64,000 bases of DNA from Ignavibacteria bacterium (GTDB taxonomy: Bacteria > Bacteroidota > Ignavibacteria > Kapaibacteriales > UBA2268), in the NCBI GenBank assembly GCA_026417135.1, contig JAOADV010000001.1:248001-312000 (forward strand). Direction: 5' to 3'. The notes under the pieces are model-generated. The model did no database searches, was not told the DNA's origin, and worked only from the letters and a program-made list of their open reading frames with translations. A program made the position numbers and the translations under genes. Below, piece after piece: positions 31,215 to 42,343 of this stretch (positions are counted from its first letter, which is position 1; each line of letters begins with the position of its first letter).

Positions 31215-34200
31215 TTATTTTATCACGGGAATCGATACAAAATAATCTTGTCCTTTGCATTTAATTTTAAGATAATAAATACCATTTGGAATCGAAGAGA
31301 CATTTAAATGAATTTGTTTGCTAAGACCATTATATCTGAATTCGTTTAAAGCTATTTCGCGTCCGAAAATATTATATATTCTATAATCGAAATCTTCGAA
31401 GCAAGAAATGTTGGATAAAATTACGTTACAATTAGTCTCGTCGTAAAACACTTTAATTTCATTTGATTGCTCAATCAAATCCACTTTTACAACAGGAGTA
31501 GTATCGACTTCAACTTTGATAGACTTGGTGGAATCGATACCACAAGTTCCCGAAATTTTGCAGTTATAAATTCCAGCATCAGCAACAGAAACTCTGTTAA
31601 CAGTCAAAATGGGTTTATCAGCACCAAATAATCTGAAACCATCTTTGAACCATTGGTACGAAATTTTATCACCTTTGGCACTAACAAATAAATTGAGTGT
31701 TTCACCTTTTCTGACTATTGTATCGGAAGAATGTGATAGGATTTTCGTCTCAGGAATAAAATCTATCGAAAATTCTGGTGTCTCGGCAGTTACGGGGCAA
31801 GGCCCACTAACTATTGCTTTATATTTACCTTTGACACTTTCATTTATGTTACGAATTACTAATACCGTATCTCTTGCGTTTGGCAAAATGTTCCCATTAT
31901 GAAGCCATTGAATACGAATATTAGAACCACGAGCTTTTACAAACAATTTTACAGAATCCCCTTCGCATACAACAGTATTTTCCGGTTGACTTCCCGATTC
32001 TAAAATCGAAGGCAATTCGTATATTGTAATTGGGGCTCGTAAAGTTGCTATTACCCCTCGTTTGTGGGAAACACGTATCCATAATGAATCTGCAAAGAAA
32101 GTAGGTGGAATTGCCCACGTATAGCTCGTACCTTTAACATCGGTTTTCAGTGGTTCCCAAGGACTTGCATAACTCTTTTTTATCTCAATATCGAAAGTGT
32201 CGGTAGCAGGTAGAGTTTCGGAAGCCCACCTAATGCTCAAATTAGTATTAGGACAAATTTTTTCGGCACCGGTGGGATAATCCAACCTTATTTCGGCTGG
32301 CGTAAACTTAAGCAACAAAACATCATTCGAGCCGCCATACCCCGTACCACCAATTGGATTTATCGTCGTCATATTCTTGGAATTAGTAACCCCAGCGATA
32401 TAAAAATCCCTCGTTTCAGTTAAGCAAAATGCTTTGGTCGAATCGTCATCTAATGTTCCAAAAATATCGGTAAAATTCAAAGAGCTTCCATCGCTAACCA
32501 TTTCAGCATAAAAAATATCATATTTTCCTATTTTCTTACCAGTCGGATTACTTACTATCGGGAAATTTGTAGAATTTGTATAACCTGTAATGTATAACTG
32601 ATTGTTTTCAAAGTCTAACGTCGTTGGAAAGTCATTCAATGAACCACCAAGAAATGTAGAAAAGACCAAATCTTGGCGCCGACTAATATTACCCCAACTA
32701 TCACGAGTTTCTATAATGTTTGAAAGTTGGGCAACAAAAACATCTGCACCACCTTTATGAGTTGACTGAAATGCATTTGTCGAAACTGGAAAGCTTGGTC
32801 TCGAAGTTGTTTCCTTATAAGTAACCCCAGAAAAAATAATTTTTTGGTCGGCAGTATAAGACACTGCTAAACCAATGTCATCGGCTGAACCTCCAAAATA
32901 AGTGGAATAGTCAACTTTTCCTTCTCCGCCTAAAATTTTTATCGCAAATGCATCCCAACCTCCGTTGAATGCTCTATCGTAAGGGGAGTCAACTACTTGC
33001 CCACCCCAGCCAGTTCTTAACGGTACCAATGGAAAGTCACTTGATTTAGTCCCTCCAGTTATAAAAATATTAGTACCAACAGCCATTGCGTAAGGACGGT
33101 CGTCGTCGCCACCACCAAAATATGTGCAATATTCAATTAAACGGCCAGAGGAAGATAATTTAATTATAAATATATCTTCTCTTCCTTTTATTTTTGTTTG
33201 ATATGCCCCACCAGTAACTGGTAAATTGGTCGAAGTAGTATAACCACAAACAAAGAAACCATTGTCGGAGGCAATTTGTCCAGCAGTAGCAATATCTTCT
33301 CTATTTCCACCTAAGTAAGTAGAATAAATAATGTTTTTCAAATCGGGAGCAAATTTTGTAATAAAAACATCACTAAGACCGTTGATTGTTTGATTGGCAG
33401 CGTTCACCACAGGAAAATCAGTTGAATTAGTCGTCCCAGCAAGATATATATTCCCACTGACATCCAAAGATAAAGCTACGGGGGAGTCATTCGTTGTGCC
33501 ACCTAAAAAAGTGGAATAAAGTAATTCTCTTTTTGCATTCCTCAAATCGAACTTACTTATAAAAACATCTTGCATTCCGTTATAAGATTCATCATAAGCG
33601 CCGGGTCGTGTGGGAAAATTTGGGGATTCAGTCCATCCGACTGCTAACAGCACACCAGTATTTAATTCCTTCAGAGCAACTATTTCTTCGTCCCCACTAC
33701 CGCCTAAATAACTAAATAAAACAATTGGGTCGATAATTAGCCTTTGCGACTTGTCGTAAGGACCTACTTCGAAAGTAAATTTATTTTCGCCTAAAGATAT
33801 GAATTTACATTCTACTTCAGCCTTTATTCCATTTTCATCTTGATAAGCAAAAAGACTACCATTGTAAACTTTGCCAAATCTGGTTTCAATCACGAGATTT
33901 TTCCCATCAGCGATAGTTGTAAATGCTCCTTCAAAATTCAAAACAATCTTATCGACTTCACCGCCAGGGTTGACAATTAAATCATATCTGGGATTTCCTT
34001 CTTGATTCTTAACCAGTAAATCGATTTCTGGGTAAATATCTGTTATTAAGATTTCTCTATATCCTTTGACATCGTGTACCCAATTTTCAACTTTATTTCC
34101 AAAAATGTAGCTAATGCCCCAATTACTGGGTTCCTTCGCAAGAAAATTCTCGAATTTACTTTTTTCAAAATTGATTCGGACAAAATGTCCCTTTTTTAAA

Positions 34201-34412
34201 GTTGAATTAACGTCTCTTTCGATTTCGAAATAATCAAAAGCGATTCCTTGCTGGGTAACAAGAAAGTTGTAATTTGATTTCAGTTGAGCAAATTTAATTT
34301 GTCCGGGCCATTGACCTTTATTTTCGACGAAATAATCACCAGTAAAAGCTAATAAACGAAATGACAAAAAAGTTAGAAAGAGAACAATAATGTAAAAATT
34401 CCTAACTACCAT
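31215..34412 (-). CDS. Secreted SBBP-repeat/Ig-like protein with T9SS sorting domain
   Basis: A 1065-residue exported protein. The signal peptide (about 1-22) is followed by a DUF7948-type domain beginning FVENKGQWPGQIKFA (about 28-225). Next comes a long series of SBBP propeller repeats (about 230-700, with units such as YSTFLGGTTNDSP, YSTYLGGNREDIA and YCTYFGGGDDDRPYA). About 725-985 holds Ig-like domains with C...GxYxC patterns (for example DAGIYNCKISGTC). The C terminus (about 990-1065) is a T9SS type A sorting domain ending YFVSIPVIK. It is probably cell-surface bound or released, as part of the T9SS cargo set seen elsewhere in the window. No enzymatic domain is visible. Confidence 0.87.
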   Translation of the reverse strand: MVVRNFYIIVLFLTFLSFRLLAFTGDYFVENKGQWPGQIKFAQLKSNYNFLVTQQGIAFDYFEIERDVNSTLKKGHFVRINFEKSKFENFLAKEPSNWGISYIFGNKVENWVHDVKGYREILITDIYPEIDLLVKNQEGNPRYDLIVNPGGEVDKIVLNFEGAFTTIADGKNLVIETRFGKVYNGSLFAYQDENGIKAEVECKFISLGENKFTFEVGPYDKSQRLIIDPIVLFSYLGGSGDEEIVALKELNTGVLLAVGWTESPNFPTRPGAYDESYNGMQDVFISKFDLRNAKRELLYSTFLGGTTNDSPVALSLDVSGNIYLAGTTNSTDFPVVNAANQTINGLSDVFITKFAPDLKNIIYSTYLGGNREDIATAGQIASDNGFFVCGYTTSTNLPVTGGAYQTKIKGREDIFIIKLSSSGRLIEYCTYFGGGDDDRPYAMAVGTNIFITGGTKSSDFPLVPLRTGWGGQVVDSPYDRAFNGGWDAFAIKILGGEGKVDYSTYFGGSADDIGLAVSYTADQKIIFSGVTYKETTSRPSFPVSTNAFQSTHKGGADVFVAQLSNIIETRDSWGNISRRQDLVFSTFLGGSLNDFPTTLDFENNQLYITGYTNSTNFPIVSNPTGKKIGKYDIFYAEMVSDGSSLNFTDIFGTLDDDSTKAFCLTETRDFYIAGVTNSKNMTTINPIGGTGYGGSNDVLLLKFTPAEIRLDYPTGAEKICPNTNLSIRWASETLPATDTFDIEIKKSYASPWEPLKTDVKGTSYTWAIPPTFFADSLWIRVSHKRGVIATLRAPITIYELPSILESGSQPENTVVCEGDSVKLFVKARGSNIRIQWLHNGNILPNARDTVLVIRNINESVKGKYKAIVSGPCPVTAETPEFSIDFIPETKILSHSSDTIVRKGETLNLFVSAKGDKISYQWFKDGFRLFGADKPILTVNRVSVADAGIYNCKISGTCGIDSTKSIKVEVDTTPVVKVDLIEQSNEIKVFYDETNCNVILSNISCFEDFDYRIYNIFGREIALNEFRYNGLSKQIHLNVSSIPNGIYYLKIKCKGQDYFVSIPVIK

Positions 34413-35051: not shown

Positions 35052-36848
35052 ATGGAAAAAGACTTTCTCAAAACCAGATTTGTAATTATCCAATTAACCT
35101 TAGGAATAGTTTTTCTCATATTTATTGGAAGGTTATTTTATCTACAAATTCTTCGTGGCAGCGTTTACAAGCTTAAATCTGAAACACAAGCCATCAAAGC
35201 TCAAGTTGTTCACCCATTTAGAGGCAACATCTACGATAAGAATGGACAACTTCTGGTTTACAATTCACCGTCTTTTTCCTTACAGCTTTTCACAGGGAGC
35301 TTCCGTAAAGACAGATTGAACTTCTTGGCTCATATTTTAGGGATGGACACCGTCAATTTGTATCACCTAATATTGCAAAATATTTACAATTATCGTTTTG
35401 GAGACATAAAATTACTCCGCGATTTGGAGTTCGATATCGTCCAAAAAATCAACGAAAACTTGGATTATTTACCCGGCGTTGAAATTGTTGTAGAGTCGAA
35501 AAGAGTTTACAATTTAACTGCCAAAATGTCGCATATCATTGGATATCTCCAAGAAATCAATCAAGAAGAAAGAAAGAACGAGCCATATTATGATATTGGT
35601 GATTTTATTGGCAAAACTGGACTGGAAAAATTTTACGAAACAGAATTACGTGGACAAAAAGGTAAAAGATTTGTAGGTGTTTCTGGGGATGGTGTTCGTA
35701 CTGCAAAATTTAACGAAGGTCGTGCGGACCAATTAGTTCGAAACGGTGATGACCTAATATTAACCATTGATTTAAATCTCCAAAAGAAAGCCGAACAATT
35801 GCTCGAAGGCAAACTTGGTGCAATTGTTGCAATCGACCCAAACAACGGGGACATCCTTGCTTTGGTAAGCAAACCAGATTACGATGTTACTCTACTTTCT
35901 GGTAAAGATTTCCCCAAAAATTATTCTATCTTAGAATCAAATAATTCAAAACCCTTGTTAAATCGTGCGATACAATCCCGTTATCCACCGGGCTCTACTT
36001 GGAAACCTCTAGTCGCATTAGCTGGTTTAGAAAGAAAAGTAATTAATGAACATACTACTTTTTACTGTTCTGGAAGTTTTCAATTTGGCGACAGAACCTT
36101 TGCTTGCAACGGCACCCACGGATACGTAAACGTCCGACGGGCTTTACAAGTTTCGTGTAATGTCTTTTTCTACCAAACAGCACTTAAGCTCCAATTCGAA
36201 GGAATTGCAAAATGGGGCTCGGAATTTGGTTTTGGGCAACGAACTGGTATCGACCTTCCATTTGAAATTACTGGTATCCTTCCCGACCTTGCTTTTCTAA
36301 AACGAAAATATGGTGATTTGAAAAAGGTTCCCTCTGGTTCCGTTGTTAACTATGGAATTGGTCAAGGAGAAATCAGCGTTACTCCAATTCAAATGGCTTG
36401 CTTCACTTCCGCTATTGCAAATGGTGGTAACTTTTTTAGGCCTCGACTTGTAAAAGCTATACGCAACAACATATTGAATCAAATTTATCCTTTGCCAATA
36501 GAAAGTCGAAAAATTCAAATCGACCAAAAAAACTTGGAATTTGTTATTAACGGTATGTTCGATGTTGTAAACACTCCTGGCGGGACAGCCTTTGGAATTA
36601 GTATCCCAGAATTAACTATCTGCGGGAAAACTGGGACAGCGCAAGTTCGAGAAGGAAAACCACCACATTCTTGGTTTATTTGTTTTGCTCCAAAAGAGAA
36701 TCCAAAGATTGCAATTTCTGTCATTGTCGAAAATGCTGGATATGGAGCAGCAGTCGCTGCTCCTATCGCAAGAGAACTTTTAAAGGAATTTTTTGGAATT
36801 AAAGAACCAATATCTCCTATCGACTCAACAAAAATTTCACCAGATTAG
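35052..36848 (+). CDS. mrdA: Penicillin-binding protein 2 (peptidoglycan transpeptidase)
   Basis: A 598-residue class B penicillin-binding protein that crosslinks peptidoglycan during elongation with RodA and MreB. The N-terminal transmembrane helix (about 10-32) is followed by the pedestal domain with FRGNIYDKNGQLL (about 56-68). The transpeptidase domain has the three active-site motifs STWK (315-318), SCN (368-370) and KTGTA (526-530). The length is typical of PBP2/MrdA. No mreBCD or rodA lies in the window, so the usual cell-shape cluster is broken up or located elsewhere. Confidence 0.95.
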   Translation: MEKDFLKTRFVIIQLTLGIVFLIFIGRLFYLQILRGSVYKLKSETQAIKAQVVHPFRGNIYDKNGQLLVYNSPSFSLQLFTGSFRKDRLNFLAHILGMDTVNLYHLILQNIYNYRFGDIKLLRDLEFDIVQKINENLDYLPGVEIVVESKRVYNLTAKMSHIIGYLQEINQEERKNEPYYDIGDFIGKTGLEKFYETELRGQKGKRFVGVSGDGVRTAKFNEGRADQLVRNGDDLILTIDLNLQKKAEQLLEGKLGAIVAIDPNNGDILALVSKPDYDVTLLSGKDFPKNYSILESNNSKPLLNRAIQSRYPPGSTWKPLVALAGLERKVINEHTTFYCSGSFQFGDRTFACNGTHGYVNVRRALQVSCNVFFYQTALKLQFEGIAKWGSEFGFGQRTGIDLPFEITGILPDLAFLKRKYGDLKKVPSGSVVNYGIGQGEISVTPIQMACFTSAIANGGNFFRPRLVKAIRNNILNQIYPLPIESRKIQIDQKNLEFVINGMFDVVNTPGGTAFGISIPELTICGKTGTAQVREGKPPHSWFICFAPKENPKIAISVIVENAGYGAAVAAPIARELLKEFFGIKEPISPIDSTKISPD

Positions 36849-36916: not shown

Positions 36917-38926
36917 ATGAAAAGTTTAGTTACGGCTTTCTTTGTTCTTCTTGCATTCTTAGCAATTACAGCTTGCGAAAATATTGGAGACGAAACTACA
37001 AATAAAAACAATTTTCAAGCCGTTCTTGTCGATGAGCAAGATATTCCAGTTCCCAACGCAATAGTCGAAGTTTTTAGAACTACACTTGGGAAGACTAATA
37101 TCCTTGTATCTGAGGAAATTATATGTATCGATACTACCGACGAGGATGGAAATTTTGAACTGAAAAATCTTCCATCTTCATTAAATAACTTGAAAATTAG
37201 AATACGACACAGCGATTTCAAAAAGTTCGAAGAAAGTTTGGATGTTCTATTTAAAAACCAATCCAAAGAAAAAATAAGGCTTCGTATCTTACATAAAGAA
37301 GAATGTTGTGGGAAAATAATTATTTACACATTAGGACCAGACTCGTCAAAATTAAGCAACGTTTCTGTAAAGTTGAATAGAAAAGATGATGTCGTTAGAA
37401 AAAGCAAAACAAATGAAGACGGGAAATTAGTATTCGAAAATGTATGCCAAGGTCAATATTGGTTTAGATTATCCAAAGACGGATACGAAGTAGTTGAAAA
37501 AGAGTTCACAATCGGAAAATGCGATACATTAGAATTTACTTTCGTCCTAAATCGAAAAAGTAGCTTCGAAAAAGACACTTGTTGCAAAGGAATTCTTGGA
37601 ATAGAGGTTAAAAACCAAAATGGGGAAATTCTAAATGGAGCATTGGTATATTTAAGAAAAGAAAGCAAGGTTATAACAAAACAAGTAGTTAAAGACAATC
37701 AAGCAGTTTACTTTAAAGAACTATGCCCGGGGTCGTATAGTCTTTTGATTCAAAAATCTGGATATTCTGCTGCCGAAGTTGACGTAACACTCCAATGCAA
37801 CGACTCCGTCTTTGTTTCATCAACTTTGTATAGGGATACTTGTTGTAATGGAAAAATTGCTATAACCGTAAAAGATAAAGAAAATAACCCAATTTCGGAC
37901 GCCAAAGTTATTATTTGGCTTGGTAAAGAAAAGATAGGCTACACGACAACAAATTCCAATGGATTTGCATTGTTTGAAAATCTTTGTCAAGGAACTTACT
38001 CTTTAAGTATTCAAAAAGATGGATACCAAACTATTGAATTTACTGTTGAACTTGGTTGCAACGAAGAAAAAGAATTTTCGAAAACATTTCAAAGAAAAGA
38101 AACCAACCAAGATTCTTGTTGCTTTGGTATTTTGAAGATTTTTGTTAAGGACAAATCAAGCAACCAATATGTCAACGGAGCATTAGTTAAAATGTGGAAA
38201 AAATCTGAAATTTTGAAAACAGCCGAAGTTACCGAAGGTGTTGCTTTATTCAAAAACATTTGTCCCGGTAGTTATAGTTTTTCGATACATAAAGAAGGAT
38301 ATAAAACAATCGAATTCACACTTACTTTTGAATGTAACGACACTTTGGAAGCAACAAAATATCTTGAAAAGACAATTCTGGATAGCTGTTGCAACGGTAA
38401 ATTGATTCTGATTGTCAAAGATACATCAAACAATCAACCAATAAAAGGTGCAGAAGTAAAACTATGGAAAGGCTCGACCAAAGTTGGAATCCAAAGTACC
38501 AATGAGAATGGAAAGGTTGTTTTCGAAAAATTATGCGAAGGAGATTACAGTGTTTCAATCTATAAGTCTGGATACAGCGGAAAAGAATTTAGCTTCGACA
38601 TTGGATGCGACCAGACAATTGAAAAACACGCATATTTAAAACAAAAAGGAACGGATACTTGTTGCACTGCTGTTTTAAAACTTCGCATCATCAATTCGAG
38701 TAATAATGAACCAATTTCTGGAGCTAAAGTTGTTATCAAAGACGGAGAAACAACTTTAGCAGAAATTACTTCCGATTCAGAAGGGTGGGCAATTAAAGAA
38801 AAATTATGCGCCCCCAAAAACTACTCGGTCAGGGTATCTGCCGAAGGGTTTCAAGCTAAAGAATTCACAATAACTTTCAAAGAATGCAATGTAATTAAAG
38901 AAACTATTAAACTTAGCTCCCAATAG
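36917..38926 (+). CDS. Lipoprotein with six tandem four-cysteine carboxypeptidase-regulatory-like domains
   Basis: A 669-residue predicted lipoprotein (lipobox ITAC, Cys20). After a first beta-sandwich domain (about 33-125) come six repeats of about 90 residues, each opening with a Cys-Cys pair (130, 222, 309, 401, 491, 582). Each carries a third Cys in a (L/I/V)CxGxYS-like strand and a fourth in a xCN/xCD turn near the end. All 24 cysteines are kept. The repeats look like transthyretin/carboxypeptidase-regulatory beta-sandwiches (GAxVKLWK, TNENGKVVFE, GYxxxEF), so two disulfides per domain are likely. The gene has a strong Shine-Dalgarno GGAGG five bases before the ATG and is followed by a terminator. 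Function unknown; a rigid surface rod or adhesin is plausible. Confidence 0.85.
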   Translation: MKSLVTAFFVLLAFLAITACENIGDETTNKNNFQAVLVDEQDIPVPNAIVEVFRTTLGKTNILVSEEIICIDTTDEDGNFELKNLPSSLNNLKIRIRHSDFKKFEESLDVLFKNQSKEKIRLRILHKEECCGKIIIYTLGPDSSKLSNVSVKLNRKDDVVRKSKTNEDGKLVFENVCQGQYWFRLSKDGYEVVEKEFTIGKCDTLEFTFVLNRKSSFEKDTCCKGILGIEVKNQNGEILNGALVYLRKESKVITKQVVKDNQAVYFKELCPGSYSLLIQKSGYSAAEVDVTLQCNDSVFVSSTLYRDTCCNGKIAITVKDKENNPISDAKVIIWLGKEKIGYTTTNSNGFALFENLCQGTYSLSIQKDGYQTIEFTVELGCNEEKEFSKTFQRKETNQDSCCFGILKIFVKDKSSNQYVNGALVKMWKKSEILKTAEVTEGVALFKNICPGSYSFSIHKEGYKTIEFTLTFECNDTLEATKYLEKTILDSCCNGKLILIVKDTSNNQPIKGAEVKLWKGSTKVGIQSTNENGKVVFEKLCEGDYSVSIYKSGYSGKEFSFDIGCDQTIEKHAYLKQKGTDTCCTAVLKLRIINSSNNEPISGAKVVIKDGETTLAEITSDSEGWAIKEKLCAPKNYSVRVSAEGFQAKEFTITFKECNVIKETIKLSSQ

Positions 38927-38940
38927 AACAAGAATAAATT

Positions 38941-38981
38941 ATTGAACAAGGGGGGTAATCCCCTTGTTCAATAAAGTTTTT
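38941..38981 (+). terminator. Rho-independent terminator after the cysteine-repeat lipoprotein gene
   Basis: A perfect 13-base inverted repeat, ATTGAACAAGGGG (38941-38953) and CCCCTTGTTCAAT (38960-38972), with a six-base loop, is followed closely by GTTTTT. It lies 14 bases after the stop codon at 38926. Confidence 0.85.
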
Positions 38982-39099
38982 AAAAACCGAAAGTATATTC
39001 TACCTTTCAAATAAATAATAGTCTAGAATAATTAATTTCACTATTATTAAAATGCAAAAAAACTTTCTTCGTTTTTTTAAAAGCATTTTTTTGATGGAT

Positions 39100-39633
39100 A
39101 TGAAACATTTGCTAAATAAAGTCTTTATTTTATCTGTTTTAATATTTTTCATTGCTTCTTGTGAGGAATTTCAAACAGATAGAGAAGCTGTTAGAAAAAC
39201 AATTTCCGAAATGCTAAATGGTACAATCGGTTTCGAATGGTTTCCCTATGAATATTCCAACTACAAACCCGACAGCAATATTTGTAAGCAAATTGATTCG
39301 CTTTGGAAAATAAAAAGGTATAACTTCATTGTTTTTGTAAATCCAAGCTGTAATTGCACTGAAACTGAAAAAATTTTCCCAAGTGTGATTAAATCTTTAA
39401 AAATGGGCAATGTCCCCGATTCAAGCATATTTGTATATTCAATGATGAACACAAGCTTTTCGCACCCTTTTAGGAATAAAATAAATATTAAATCGCTCCC
39501 AAGTTGCTTCACCGAAATTGATTCATCCAATGCTATTTATTACTCTTGTTTGGATACTTTAAAAATTTACCAGGTTAAATATCCAGGGAAATATCGTATC
39601 GAACATATACTTGCCACAAGCTTAGAAAAGTGA
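39100..39633 (+). CDS. Hypothetical lipoprotein, possibly thioredoxin-like
   Basis: A 177-residue predicted lipoprotein with the lipobox IASC at Cys21. The frame opens at an earlier ATG (39052), but the third ATG (39100) gives a clean signal peptide with no extra charged stretch. The middle shows a strand-turn NFIVFVNPSCNC followed by an amphipathic helix, reminiscent of a thioredoxin fold with a CxC rather than CxxC site. I do not recognise a family. It lies after the terminator, so it has its own promoter, and no partner gene is adjacent. Confidence 0.6.
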   Translation: MKHLLNKVFILSVLIFFIASCEEFQTDREAVRKTISEMLNGTIGFEWFPYEYSNYKPDSNICKQIDSLWKIKRYNFIVFVNPSCNCTETEKIFPSVIKSLKMGNVPDSSIFVYSMMNTSFSHPFRNKINIKSLPSCFTEIDSSNAIYYSCLDTLKIYQVKYPGKYRIEHILATSLEK

Positions 39634-39907: not shown

Positions 39908-41431
39908 ATGTCAATTGTTTTAGACGGGACAAGTTTAACAATCGAAAAATTGGTTAAAATTGCTCGAAATTGTGAAAGTGTTGTTATTACAGATGATTCA
40001 TTAGAAAGAATCAAAAAATGCCGCCAGATGCTTGAACGAAAATTAAAAGCACGTGAAGTAATGTATGGCACAAACACTGGGATTGGTGAGTTTTCCGAAA
40101 TTGTATTATCCGACGACGAAGTTCGAGAGTTTCAAAGATATCTGGTTTACAATCATTCTGCTGGAATTGGCGAGCCAATGCCAATTGAATATGTTAGAGG
40201 TGCAATTGCAAGTAGAATTAATGTGCATTCCAAAGGTTTCTCGGCTTGTCGACCTGAAATTACACTTACTCTTGTCGAAATGCTCAACAAAGGAGTAATA
40301 CCAGTTGTTTGCCGAAAGGGTTCGGTTGGTGCTTGTGGCGATTTAGCCCCTATGTCCCAAATTGCTTTACTGATGCTTGGCGAAGGCGAAGCATTCTACG
40401 GTGGAGAGAGACTACCGGGCAAGATTGCCTTCGAAAAGGCTGGAATTCCGATTCCCGGGCTTGAGGCAAGAGATGGTCTCGCAATAATCAACGGCTCTAA
40501 CTTTGTAACCGCAATAAGCGCACTACAATTATGGGATTTTAAAAGATTCATTAAACAAGCCGAAATTGCTTCTGCAATGTCGTTGGAAGCACTCCTTGCA
40601 AATATGAAACCTTACGATTTGAGAATCCACAAACTTCGAGGTTTCGACGGAGCCATTCGTAGTTCTGCTACTATCATGAAATGTTTGGAAGGCAGTTCCT
40701 TATTAAGCGGAAAAGTTAAAACAAGAGTGCAAGATGCTTATTCTATGCGTTCGACCCCACAAGTCATAGGTGCTGCGAGAGATGCAATAGAATTCGCTTG
40801 GAAACAAGTTGAAATTGAACTCAACGGAGTCGGCGACAATCCAATATTCGTAGTTGAGGATGAAATAACATTAACAGGGGCTAATTTCCAAGGAAGTCCG
40901 ATTTCCCTACCTATGGACTTCGCTGGTGCAGCAATAACTATGGTCTGTGTGCTATCGGAACGAAGATTAAATAGGTTGCTAAATCCCGCTTTAAATCAAG
41001 GGTTACCAGCTTTCCTCACAAAAAACCCCGGATTCTTTTCTGGACTAATGTTAAGCCAATACACTGCCGATACAATGATTGTCGAGCAAAGAATTTTATC
41101 AACTCCTGCTTCTATACAATCTATTCCAGCTGCGGCGGACCAAGAAGATTTTGTCTCTATGGGTATGAACACCGCTTTGAAAAATGAACAAATATTGGAA
41201 AACGCTTACGGAATCTTGGGGATTGAATTCTTAGCCGCTGCACAGGCTTTAGATTTAAGAAATTTAGAATATGGGAAGGGCGTTGAAATAGCAAGAAAAG
41301 TAATTAGAAAATACATTCCTTTTTTGGAAGAGGATAGACCTCTTTATTCCGACCACAATAAAATCAAAGAGCTTGTAAAAAGTGGCGAAATTTTAGAAAG
41401 CGTCGAACAAGAATTAGGTAGCTTAGACTAA
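39908..41431 (+). CDS. Histidine/aromatic amino acid ammonia-lyase family enzyme with Cys MIO triad
   Basis: A 507-residue MIO-family lyase. Active-site residues line up with bacterial histidine ammonia-lyase: Tyr53 (MYGTNTGIG), His83 (YNHSAG), Asn195 (INGSN), Arg in YSMRSTPQ, and QEDFVSMGMNTA near the end. The MIO-forming triad, normally Ala-Ser-Gly, reads Ala142-Cys143-Gly144 (GSVGACGDLAP). The usual RPHxGQ segment is replaced by RGFDGA. These changes make the substrate uncertain: it could deaminate histidine or another amino acid, or be an aminomutase. No hutU, hutI or hutG is adjacent. A phosphate acyltransferase gene follows 15 bases later. The family is certain; the specific name hutH is not. 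Confidence 0.85.
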   Translation: MSIVLDGTSLTIEKLVKIARNCESVVITDDSLERIKKCRQMLERKLKAREVMYGTNTGIGEFSEIVLSDDEVREFQRYLVYNHSAGIGEPMPIEYVRGAIASRINVHSKGFSACRPEITLTLVEMLNKGVIPVVCRKGSVGACGDLAPMSQIALLMLGEGEAFYGGERLPGKIAFEKAGIPIPGLEARDGLAIINGSNFVTAISALQLWDFKRFIKQAEIASAMSLEALLANMKPYDLRIHKLRGFDGAIRSSATIMKCLEGSSLLSGKVKTRVQDAYSMRSTPQVIGAARDAIEFAWKQVEIELNGVGDNPIFVVEDEITLTGANFQGSPISLPMDFAGAAITMVCVLSERRLNRLLNPALNQGLPAFLTKNPGFFSGLMLSQYTADTMIVEQRILSTPASIQSIPAAADQEDFVSMGMNTALKNEQILENAYGILGIEFLAAAQALDLRNLEYGKGVEIARKVIRKYIPFLEEDRPLYSDHNKIKELVKSGEILESVEQELGSLD

Positions 41432-41446
41432 AATGGAATATAAATT

Positions 41447-42343
41447 ATGACACTGAACAAATTAGAGAACTTAATTCAAATTGCACAGCAAAAACCAATG
41501 AAAAAAATTGCTGTCGCAGCATCCGAAGACGAGCAAGTCCTTCTTGCTTTAAAACAAGCTATCGATGAAAAAATTGTCGAGCCAATTTTAGTAGGAAATA
41601 AAGAAAAAACACTAAAAATAGCCGAATCGATTCAATTTGATATCTCCCGATTTGAAATGGTCGAGGAAACTGATACGAGTCGCTCCGCTCGTATTGCTGT
41701 AAAACTCACACGTGAAGGATACGCACAAATAATTATGAAAGGACTTGTTTCGACAGCGGATTTTCTTCGAGCAATCTTAGACAAAGAACAAGGGTTACGA
41801 AGTGGTCAACTCCTTAGCCACGTAGGAATTTTCGAGATTCCATCTTACCACAAGCTTTTAGGCTTGACCGACGCAGCACAAAACATAGCTCCAAATTTAG
41901 ACGAAAAAATATGCATCTTACTAAATGCAGTTGATTTGTTCCACCGACTGGGCGTTGAAAATCCAAAAGTAGCAATGCTTTCAGCGGTAGAGACCGTTAA
42001 CCCAAAAATGCAGTCGACTATCGACTCTGCATTAATTACGATGATGAACAAAAGAAAGCAAATTCGTGGATGCATAATCGATGGTCCACTTGCTTTCGAT
42101 AACGCAATATCCATTGAAGCTGCGAAGCACAAAGGAATTGAAAGCGAAGTTGCTGGCGACGCAGACCTATTAGTTGCTCCCGATATAGAAACTGGAAATG
42201 CTCTCTACAAAAGTTTCACCTACTTTGCTGGTGGTATTGTAGCAGCTGTAATACTTGGAGCAACAGCACCAATAGTTTTAACTTCACGTTCCGATTCCGA
42301 AATGAGCAAATTTATGTCGGTGGTTCTTGCAGCTACTTTTTGA
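41447..42343 (+). CDS. ptb: Phosphate butyryltransferase-type phosphotransacylase
   Basis: A 298-residue cytosolic enzyme of the phosphate acetyl/butyryltransferase family, which swaps CoA for phosphate on an acyl group. It has the family features: an AAASEDEQVL-like N-terminal segment (residues about 21-30 read VAASEDEQVL), IIMKGLVSTADFLRA (about 95-109), AVETVNPKMQST and DGPLAFDNA (about 206-214), and a glycine-rich AATAPIVLTSRSDS ending. The length fits phosphate butyryltransferase rather than the longer Pta. It follows the lyase gene by 15 bases and is probably cotranscribed. No acyl kinase (buk or ackA) lies beside it. Its stop codon abuts the stop of the convergent gene. Confidence 0.82.
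   Translation: MTLNKLENLIQIAQQKPMKKIAVAASEDEQVLLALKQAIDEKIVEPILVGNKEKTLKIAESIQFDISRFEMVEETDTSRSARIAVKLTREGYAQIIMKGLVSTADFLRAILDKEQGLRSGQLLSHVGIFEIPSYHKLLGLTDAAQNIAPNLDEKICILLNAVDLFHRLGVENPKVAMLSAVETVNPKMQSTIDSALITMMNKRKQIRGCIIDGPLAFDNAISIEAAKHKGIESEVAGDADLLVAPDIETGNALYKSFTYFAGGIVAAVILGATAPIVLTSRSDSEMSKFMSVVLAATF

Follow-up and report, generated by a model that had tools for sequence, protein, structure and literature searches.

A lipoprotein array of four-cysteine, CnaB-like domains with predicted nested disulfides in the Ignavibacteria

The 64,000-nucleotide stretch of Ignavibacteria DNA analysed here (the window) contains an ORF (36917-38926, +) for a 669-residue lipoprotein, which consists of a lead domain followed by six domains with four cysteines each. 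Natural variation among homologues strongly supports the prediction that each of the six domains holds two nested disulfides, one joining the second cysteine to the third (C2-C3) and the other the first to the fourth (C1-C4). A stalk of the CnaB/CarboxypepD_reg kind, furnished with disulfides, fits these data best, rather than a redox device. We put the probability at about two in three that the protein is a lipid-anchored extracytoplasmic stalk in which the disulfides make a pulling force bypass some 80% of each domain.

Gene and protein organization

The array gene lies in a genome of 2.24 Mb. Residues 1-20 (36917-36976, +) form the signal peptide and lipobox, as judged from the sequence and from comparison with homologues; the lipobox is LAITAC, Cys20 is the lipidated residue, and acidic residues are found behind it (CENIGDE). 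The lead domain (residues 21-129; 36977-37303, +) is CarboxypepD_reg-like by sequence, Pfam and homologue comparison, and does not have the cysteine set. The initial annotation had described it as cysteine-free, which is wrong: besides the lipid Cys20 it carries a single cysteine, Cys70, that is absent from homologues.

A Cys-Cys opens each of the six following domains, at residues 130, 222, 309, 401, 491 and 582, exactly as first reported along with the ORF and its coordinates. The domains are about 90 residues long (87-92). With the cysteines listed in order from C1 to C4, domain 1 (37304-37579, +) has Cys130/131/177/202, in a register typical of first domains, and its predicted pairs are 130-177 and 131-202. 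The others are domain 2 (37580-37840, +; Cys222/223/270/294; predicted pairs 223-270 and 222-294), domain 3 (37841-38116, +; Cys309/310/357/381; 310-357 and 309-381), domain 4 (38117-38386, +; Cys401/402/449/473; 402-449 and 401-473), domain 5 (38387-38659, +; Cys491/492/540/564; 492-540 and 491-564) and domain 6 (38660-38923, +; Cys582/583/631/657; 583-631 and 582-657). The last is of a C-terminal tip type with the pattern CCTAxLKL...LCAPxxY...ECN. The strand motif CxGxYS, which had been ascribed to every repeat, holds in all six for its C3 cysteine, with deviations in the surrounding residues in domain 6 (LCAPKNYS) and domain 1 (VCQGQYW).

Pairwise identity among the six repeats is 17-47%, and all 24 domain cysteines are nevertheless retained, C3 and C4 having been located in every repeat. 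Since the same set recurs in most domains of the homologues (see below), conservation of the cysteines is, from the sequences, far beyond chance. No repeat array is left in the gene at the DNA level, where Tandem Repeats Finder gave an 8-bp match alone; the repeats are thus old and maintained by selection at the protein level.

In Pfam the protein matches PF13620 (CarboxypepD_reg) in seven stretches, with an E-value of 1.5e-57 and 192.3 bits against a gathering score of 32.3. Weaker matches are to SdrD_B, SpaA and PEGA.

Distribution of homologues

A full-length alignment of seven proteins served to scan genomes. Of 60 related genomes, 37 have homologues, as do 48 of the 294 genomes sampled from the class (Ca. 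Kapabacteria/Ignavibacteria MAGs), the related MAGs carrying the labels Candidatus Kapabacteria, Ignavibacteria or Bacteroidetes/Chlorobi group. The strong matches in a sample of 296 genomes from the phylum were those of the window's family and of one further genome of the class; the weak matches that were examined proved to be ordinary Cys-free or two-Cys domains. Plasmid records yielded weak relatives only (<60% identity), whose annotations name either SpaA pilin-related or carboxypeptidase regulatory-like proteins. The array proteins comprise 3-10 domains, the window protein having six and its four congeners seven. A literature search turned up no publication that deals with these proteins or with CarboxypepD_reg arrays of the four-Cys kind.

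Predicted fold

An AlphaFold (AF2) model of domains 3-5, built from 110 sequences, has a mean pLDDT of 95 and seven strands per domain. The best Foldseek matches are the Bacillus TIE protein (6fwv, E 1.6e-18), Gram-positive pilins, SdrD B and Cna B repeats, low TM-scores being due to different inter-domain angles, and a profile search of solved structures returned 6fwv, NOMO2 (9c7v) and SdrD. The carboxypeptidase-regulatory/transthyretin-type fold named at the outset is thus borne out by Pfam, model and Foldseek together, and the modelled array domains have a CnaB/CarboxypepD_reg-like fold.

In the model the Cys-Cys immediately precedes strand A, C3 closes strand D and C4 directly follows strand F. 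The sheet order of CnaB-type domains is D-A-G-F, which makes these sites neighbours at one pole of the domain. At the column aligned with the isopeptide lysine of 6fwv, none of 337 domains has Lys (the residues are V/P/I/A/L/T/Y), which rules out an isopeptide bond as the clamp. Nor is there sortase anchoring through LPXTG, as the lipobox lies at residue 20 and the chain stops after domain 6.

Disulfide pairing from natural cysteine variation

The domain profile was mapped onto 62 proteins, namely 60 arrays or fragments and two Cys-free neighbours. Written as the numbers of (N-terminal Cys, C3, C4), the composition is (2,1,1) in 297 of 337 complete domains. The exceptions are (1,1,0) in 16, where C4 and one cysteine of the N-terminal pair are gone; (1,0,1) in 15, where C3 and one N-terminal cysteine are gone; (0,0,0) in eight, of which seven are lead domains and the eighth belongs to an unrelated protein; and (3,1,0) in one, where C4 is lost and an extra N-terminal cysteine gained. 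An odd count occurs in none of the 337, and the compositions (2,1,0), (2,0,1), (1,1,1) and (1,0,0) are absent. Across these domains, then, the set is either conserved or reduced in pairs only. Homologues that kept the sandwich and had shed the cysteines would have told against the initial annotation; the homologues keep the set.

These paired losses are a natural experiment that fixes the pairing by sequence alone. Where C4 is missing, the remaining N-terminal cysteine stands at the C2 register (16 of 16). Where C3 is missing (15 of 15), it occupies the C1 register in 10 and lies two residues downstream in 5, a site that the second cysteine takes when the pair has a one-residue shift, such as in first domains. 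Residues 1 and 3 of a strand point to the same side. The register of the retained cysteine agrees with nested C2-C3 and C1-C4 bonds in 31 of 31 cases and, taken with the facing of the strand, leads to that pairing. A shift of the pair like that in domain 1 would swap the partners to C1-C3 and C2-C4. A vicinal C1-C2 disulfide, by comparison, would leave C3 and C4 together, a combination never seen among the 337 domains.

Some of the exceptions share a common descent: on a noisy tree of 80 columns, parsimony counts 10 and 11 changes. Judged by array position alone, they arose at least five times independently. Loss of C4 is found in first and middle domains, and loss of C3 in first, last and middle domains.

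Two phylum relatives outside the class (L055 and L064) have two-Cys domains with one cysteine at the C2 register and the other at C3, and these independently support the C2-C3 bond. A two-Cys CarboxypepD_reg domain in another phylum relative, L058, has one cysteine where the domain begins and the other close to the C3 position. The two-Cys domains of all three are possibly an older, single-disulfide form. A search for solved structures related to the phylum two-Cys domain, in which a C2-C3 bond might be displayed, found none.

Parity and register together thus back the two disulfides per domain that had been predicted, and these bonds presumably form inside the cell.

A probable lipid-anchored stalk

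The architecture proposed is a lipid-anchored stalk, in which the lead domain and six seven-stranded CnaB/CarboxypepD_reg-like domains would follow one another head to tail. In each domain the two cysteines ahead of strand A would form nested bonds, C2 with the C3 that closes strand D and C1 with the C4 that directly follows F. From C4 to the next Cys-Cys there are on average 17.4 of 90 residues (n=231), so that a C1-C4 bond would tie the beginning of one domain to a site some 17 residues short of the following one, and tension would skip the other 73 or so. Force would enter at the N-terminus of a domain, cross the C1-C4 disulfide and leave through strand G; because the C1-C4 loop is bypassed, an oxidised domain would resist being pulled open. 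The disulfide clamp might in this way act in the array as isopeptide bonds act in the CnaB stalks of Gram-positives, stalks that are inextensible in pulling experiments (PMC12617251, PMC5080380). The stiff, lipid-anchored rod of the initial annotation is accordingly plausible, yet its mechanical purpose is something that we infer. The C-terminal tip domain would bind a ligand or make contacts.

The stalk may be exposed at the cell surface. An acidic residue follows the lipid cysteine at +3 in 28 of 47 homologues and at +4 in 16 of 47, positions +2 to +7 having been compared. In Bacteroidota, SDDDD and K-(D/E)2 act as signals that send lipoproteins to the surface (PMC5080379); the LES criterion is a polar or basic residue and then acidic residues within +2 to +6. 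The +3/+4 residues bear some resemblance to these signals, known from other Bacteroidota, and would be a weak sign of surface exposure.

The disulfides may instead serve stability alone and protect small extracytoplasmic domains from heat, proteases or denaturants, in a periplasmic or surface binding scaffold that bears no load. Disulfides are common stabilisers, isopeptide bonds in the CnaB fold likewise add resistance to proteases and heat (PMC12617251), and the gene context gives no hint of force. We regard this as unlikely, because the change from six to seven domains between congeners, with lead domain and C-terminal tip conserved, is stalk-like, and because the C1-C4 bond is placed so as to take about 80% of the domain out of the load path.

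Gene neighbourhood

A PBP2-type gene (35052-36848, +; PBP_dimer and transpeptidase domains by Pfam, mrdA-like) ends 69 bp upstream of the array gene. Comparison of loci places an mrdA-like gene with the orientation of the array gene 66-110 bp upstream of it at eight loci in four genera, the window's included, and about 2 kb upstream at a ninth, with other ORFs between. From this arrangement one could take the protein for an envelope spacer or cell-wall factor that partners PBP2 and spans the periplasm instead of facing outward. Such a role is improbable, given that the neighbours are different in other genera, that no peptidoglycan-binding domain was found in the array protein with Pfam, and that a domain number ranging from 3 to 10 is unlike a spacer of fixed reach. 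In another family a sigma-54 regulator lies upstream of the array and Nuo51/2Fe-2S genes (hydrogenase- or complex I-type) downstream; further neighbours, by clade, are an ABC transporter, large secreted proteins and, in part of the window's family, PBP2. Since the neighbours vary between families, gene context does not prove a stalk function either.

Other genes were recorded in passing. O-antigen-ligase-like (PF04932) and GNVR-domain (PF13807) genes are present further upstream in three other genera (L119, L120, L131, L135). Within the window, a phosphate acetyl/butyryltransferase gene (41447-42343) lies 15 bp behind an aromatic amino acid lyase gene (39908-41431) on the same strand. A 1065-residue secreted protein (31215-34412, -) has DUF7948, SBBP beta-propeller repeats, two Ig-like domains and a Por secretion tail, which marks it as type IX secretion cargo.

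Oxidation of the array protein

Searches of 60 genomes from the window's order turned up neither DsbB nor VKOR, and no DsbA was found in the window's genus; control genomes did give matches. Among 197 genomes of the class, VKOR is present in 28, including array-bearing genomes of other orders, and DsbB in one. The window's protein thus keeps twelve predicted disulfides in an order without recognisable DsbB or VKOR, and some agent must oxidise it.

The next gene after the array (39052-39633) encodes a lipoprotein of an order-wide family (50 of 60 genomes), which has an invariant CxC (usually P-[ST]-C-x-C), an invariant proline and a cis-proline-like LP motif. Its predicted fold (pLDDT 93.8) appears thioredoxin-like, the best Foldseek matches being mostly of that type with E-values above 0.01; no Pfam or NCBIfam family attains its cut-off, and a profile search for solved structures found none. 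This CxC lipoprotein is a candidate oxidant or isomerase of the array disulfides. The stronger claim of a dedicated redox partner we reject, because the family is order-wide, because in the loci read it adjoins the array in the window's genus only and has other neighbours elsewhere, and because a terminator-like hairpin of 16 pairs directly 3' of the array gene (38939-38974, +) splits the two genes.

It is very improbable that the cysteines bind metal (as a CC-C-C site) or form a redox-active chain running the length of the protein. A domain with four cysteines has in principle the ligands for Zn or Fe, and a thioredoxin-like CxC lipoprotein is the next gene in the window's genus, but that gene is unlinked elsewhere and stands behind the hairpin here, and the fixed-pair losses leave one N-terminal cysteine and one partner in strict register, which a four-ligand site would not do. 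On the parity data we reject both such a metal site and the vicinal C1-C2 disulfide. The redox role suggested in the initial annotation finds no support either, the cysteines being at invariant structural positions and lost in pairs only, and no redox gene being linked to the array beyond one genus.

A broader proposal, less likely than not, can be offered tentatively: the array proteins could be a class-level Gram-negative stalk family in which nested disulfides replace isopeptide bonds, and the window's order could oxidise them without DsbB or VKOR by an unrecognised route, perhaps through the CxC lipoprotein.

Comparison with known systems

The lead domain resembles TIGR04134 (radical SAM-associated putative lipoprotein) over residues 7-103 only, at 29.9 bits, below the curated cut-off of 39.8 for membership. 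All seven domains of the protein match the CarboxypepD_reg profile (PF13620; compare CarbopepD_reg_2, PF13715), whereas ordinary members from other parts of the phylum have either no cysteine or two, one at the C2 position and one at C3. The NOMO arrays of the BOS complex are similar in that tandem TTR-like domains form a rod (profile match 9c7v); NOMO, however, is a eukaryotic ER protein, and the match spans about one and a half domains.

The CnaB isopeptide domains of pilins, Cna B, 6fwv and SdrD B share with the array a seven-stranded TTR/inverse-Ig-like fold and a tandem stalk architecture, and in both the covalent clamps are expected to oppose stretching. They differ in the clamp itself, which is a Lys-Asn/Asp isopeptide bond in CnaB domains and two predicted disulfides in the array, and in attachment, the array protein being lipid-anchored in a Gram-negative envelope and without a sortase motif. 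If the stalk reading is true, the array would be a Gram-negative, disulfide-based counterpart to the isopeptide-clamped stalk of Gram-positive adhesins.
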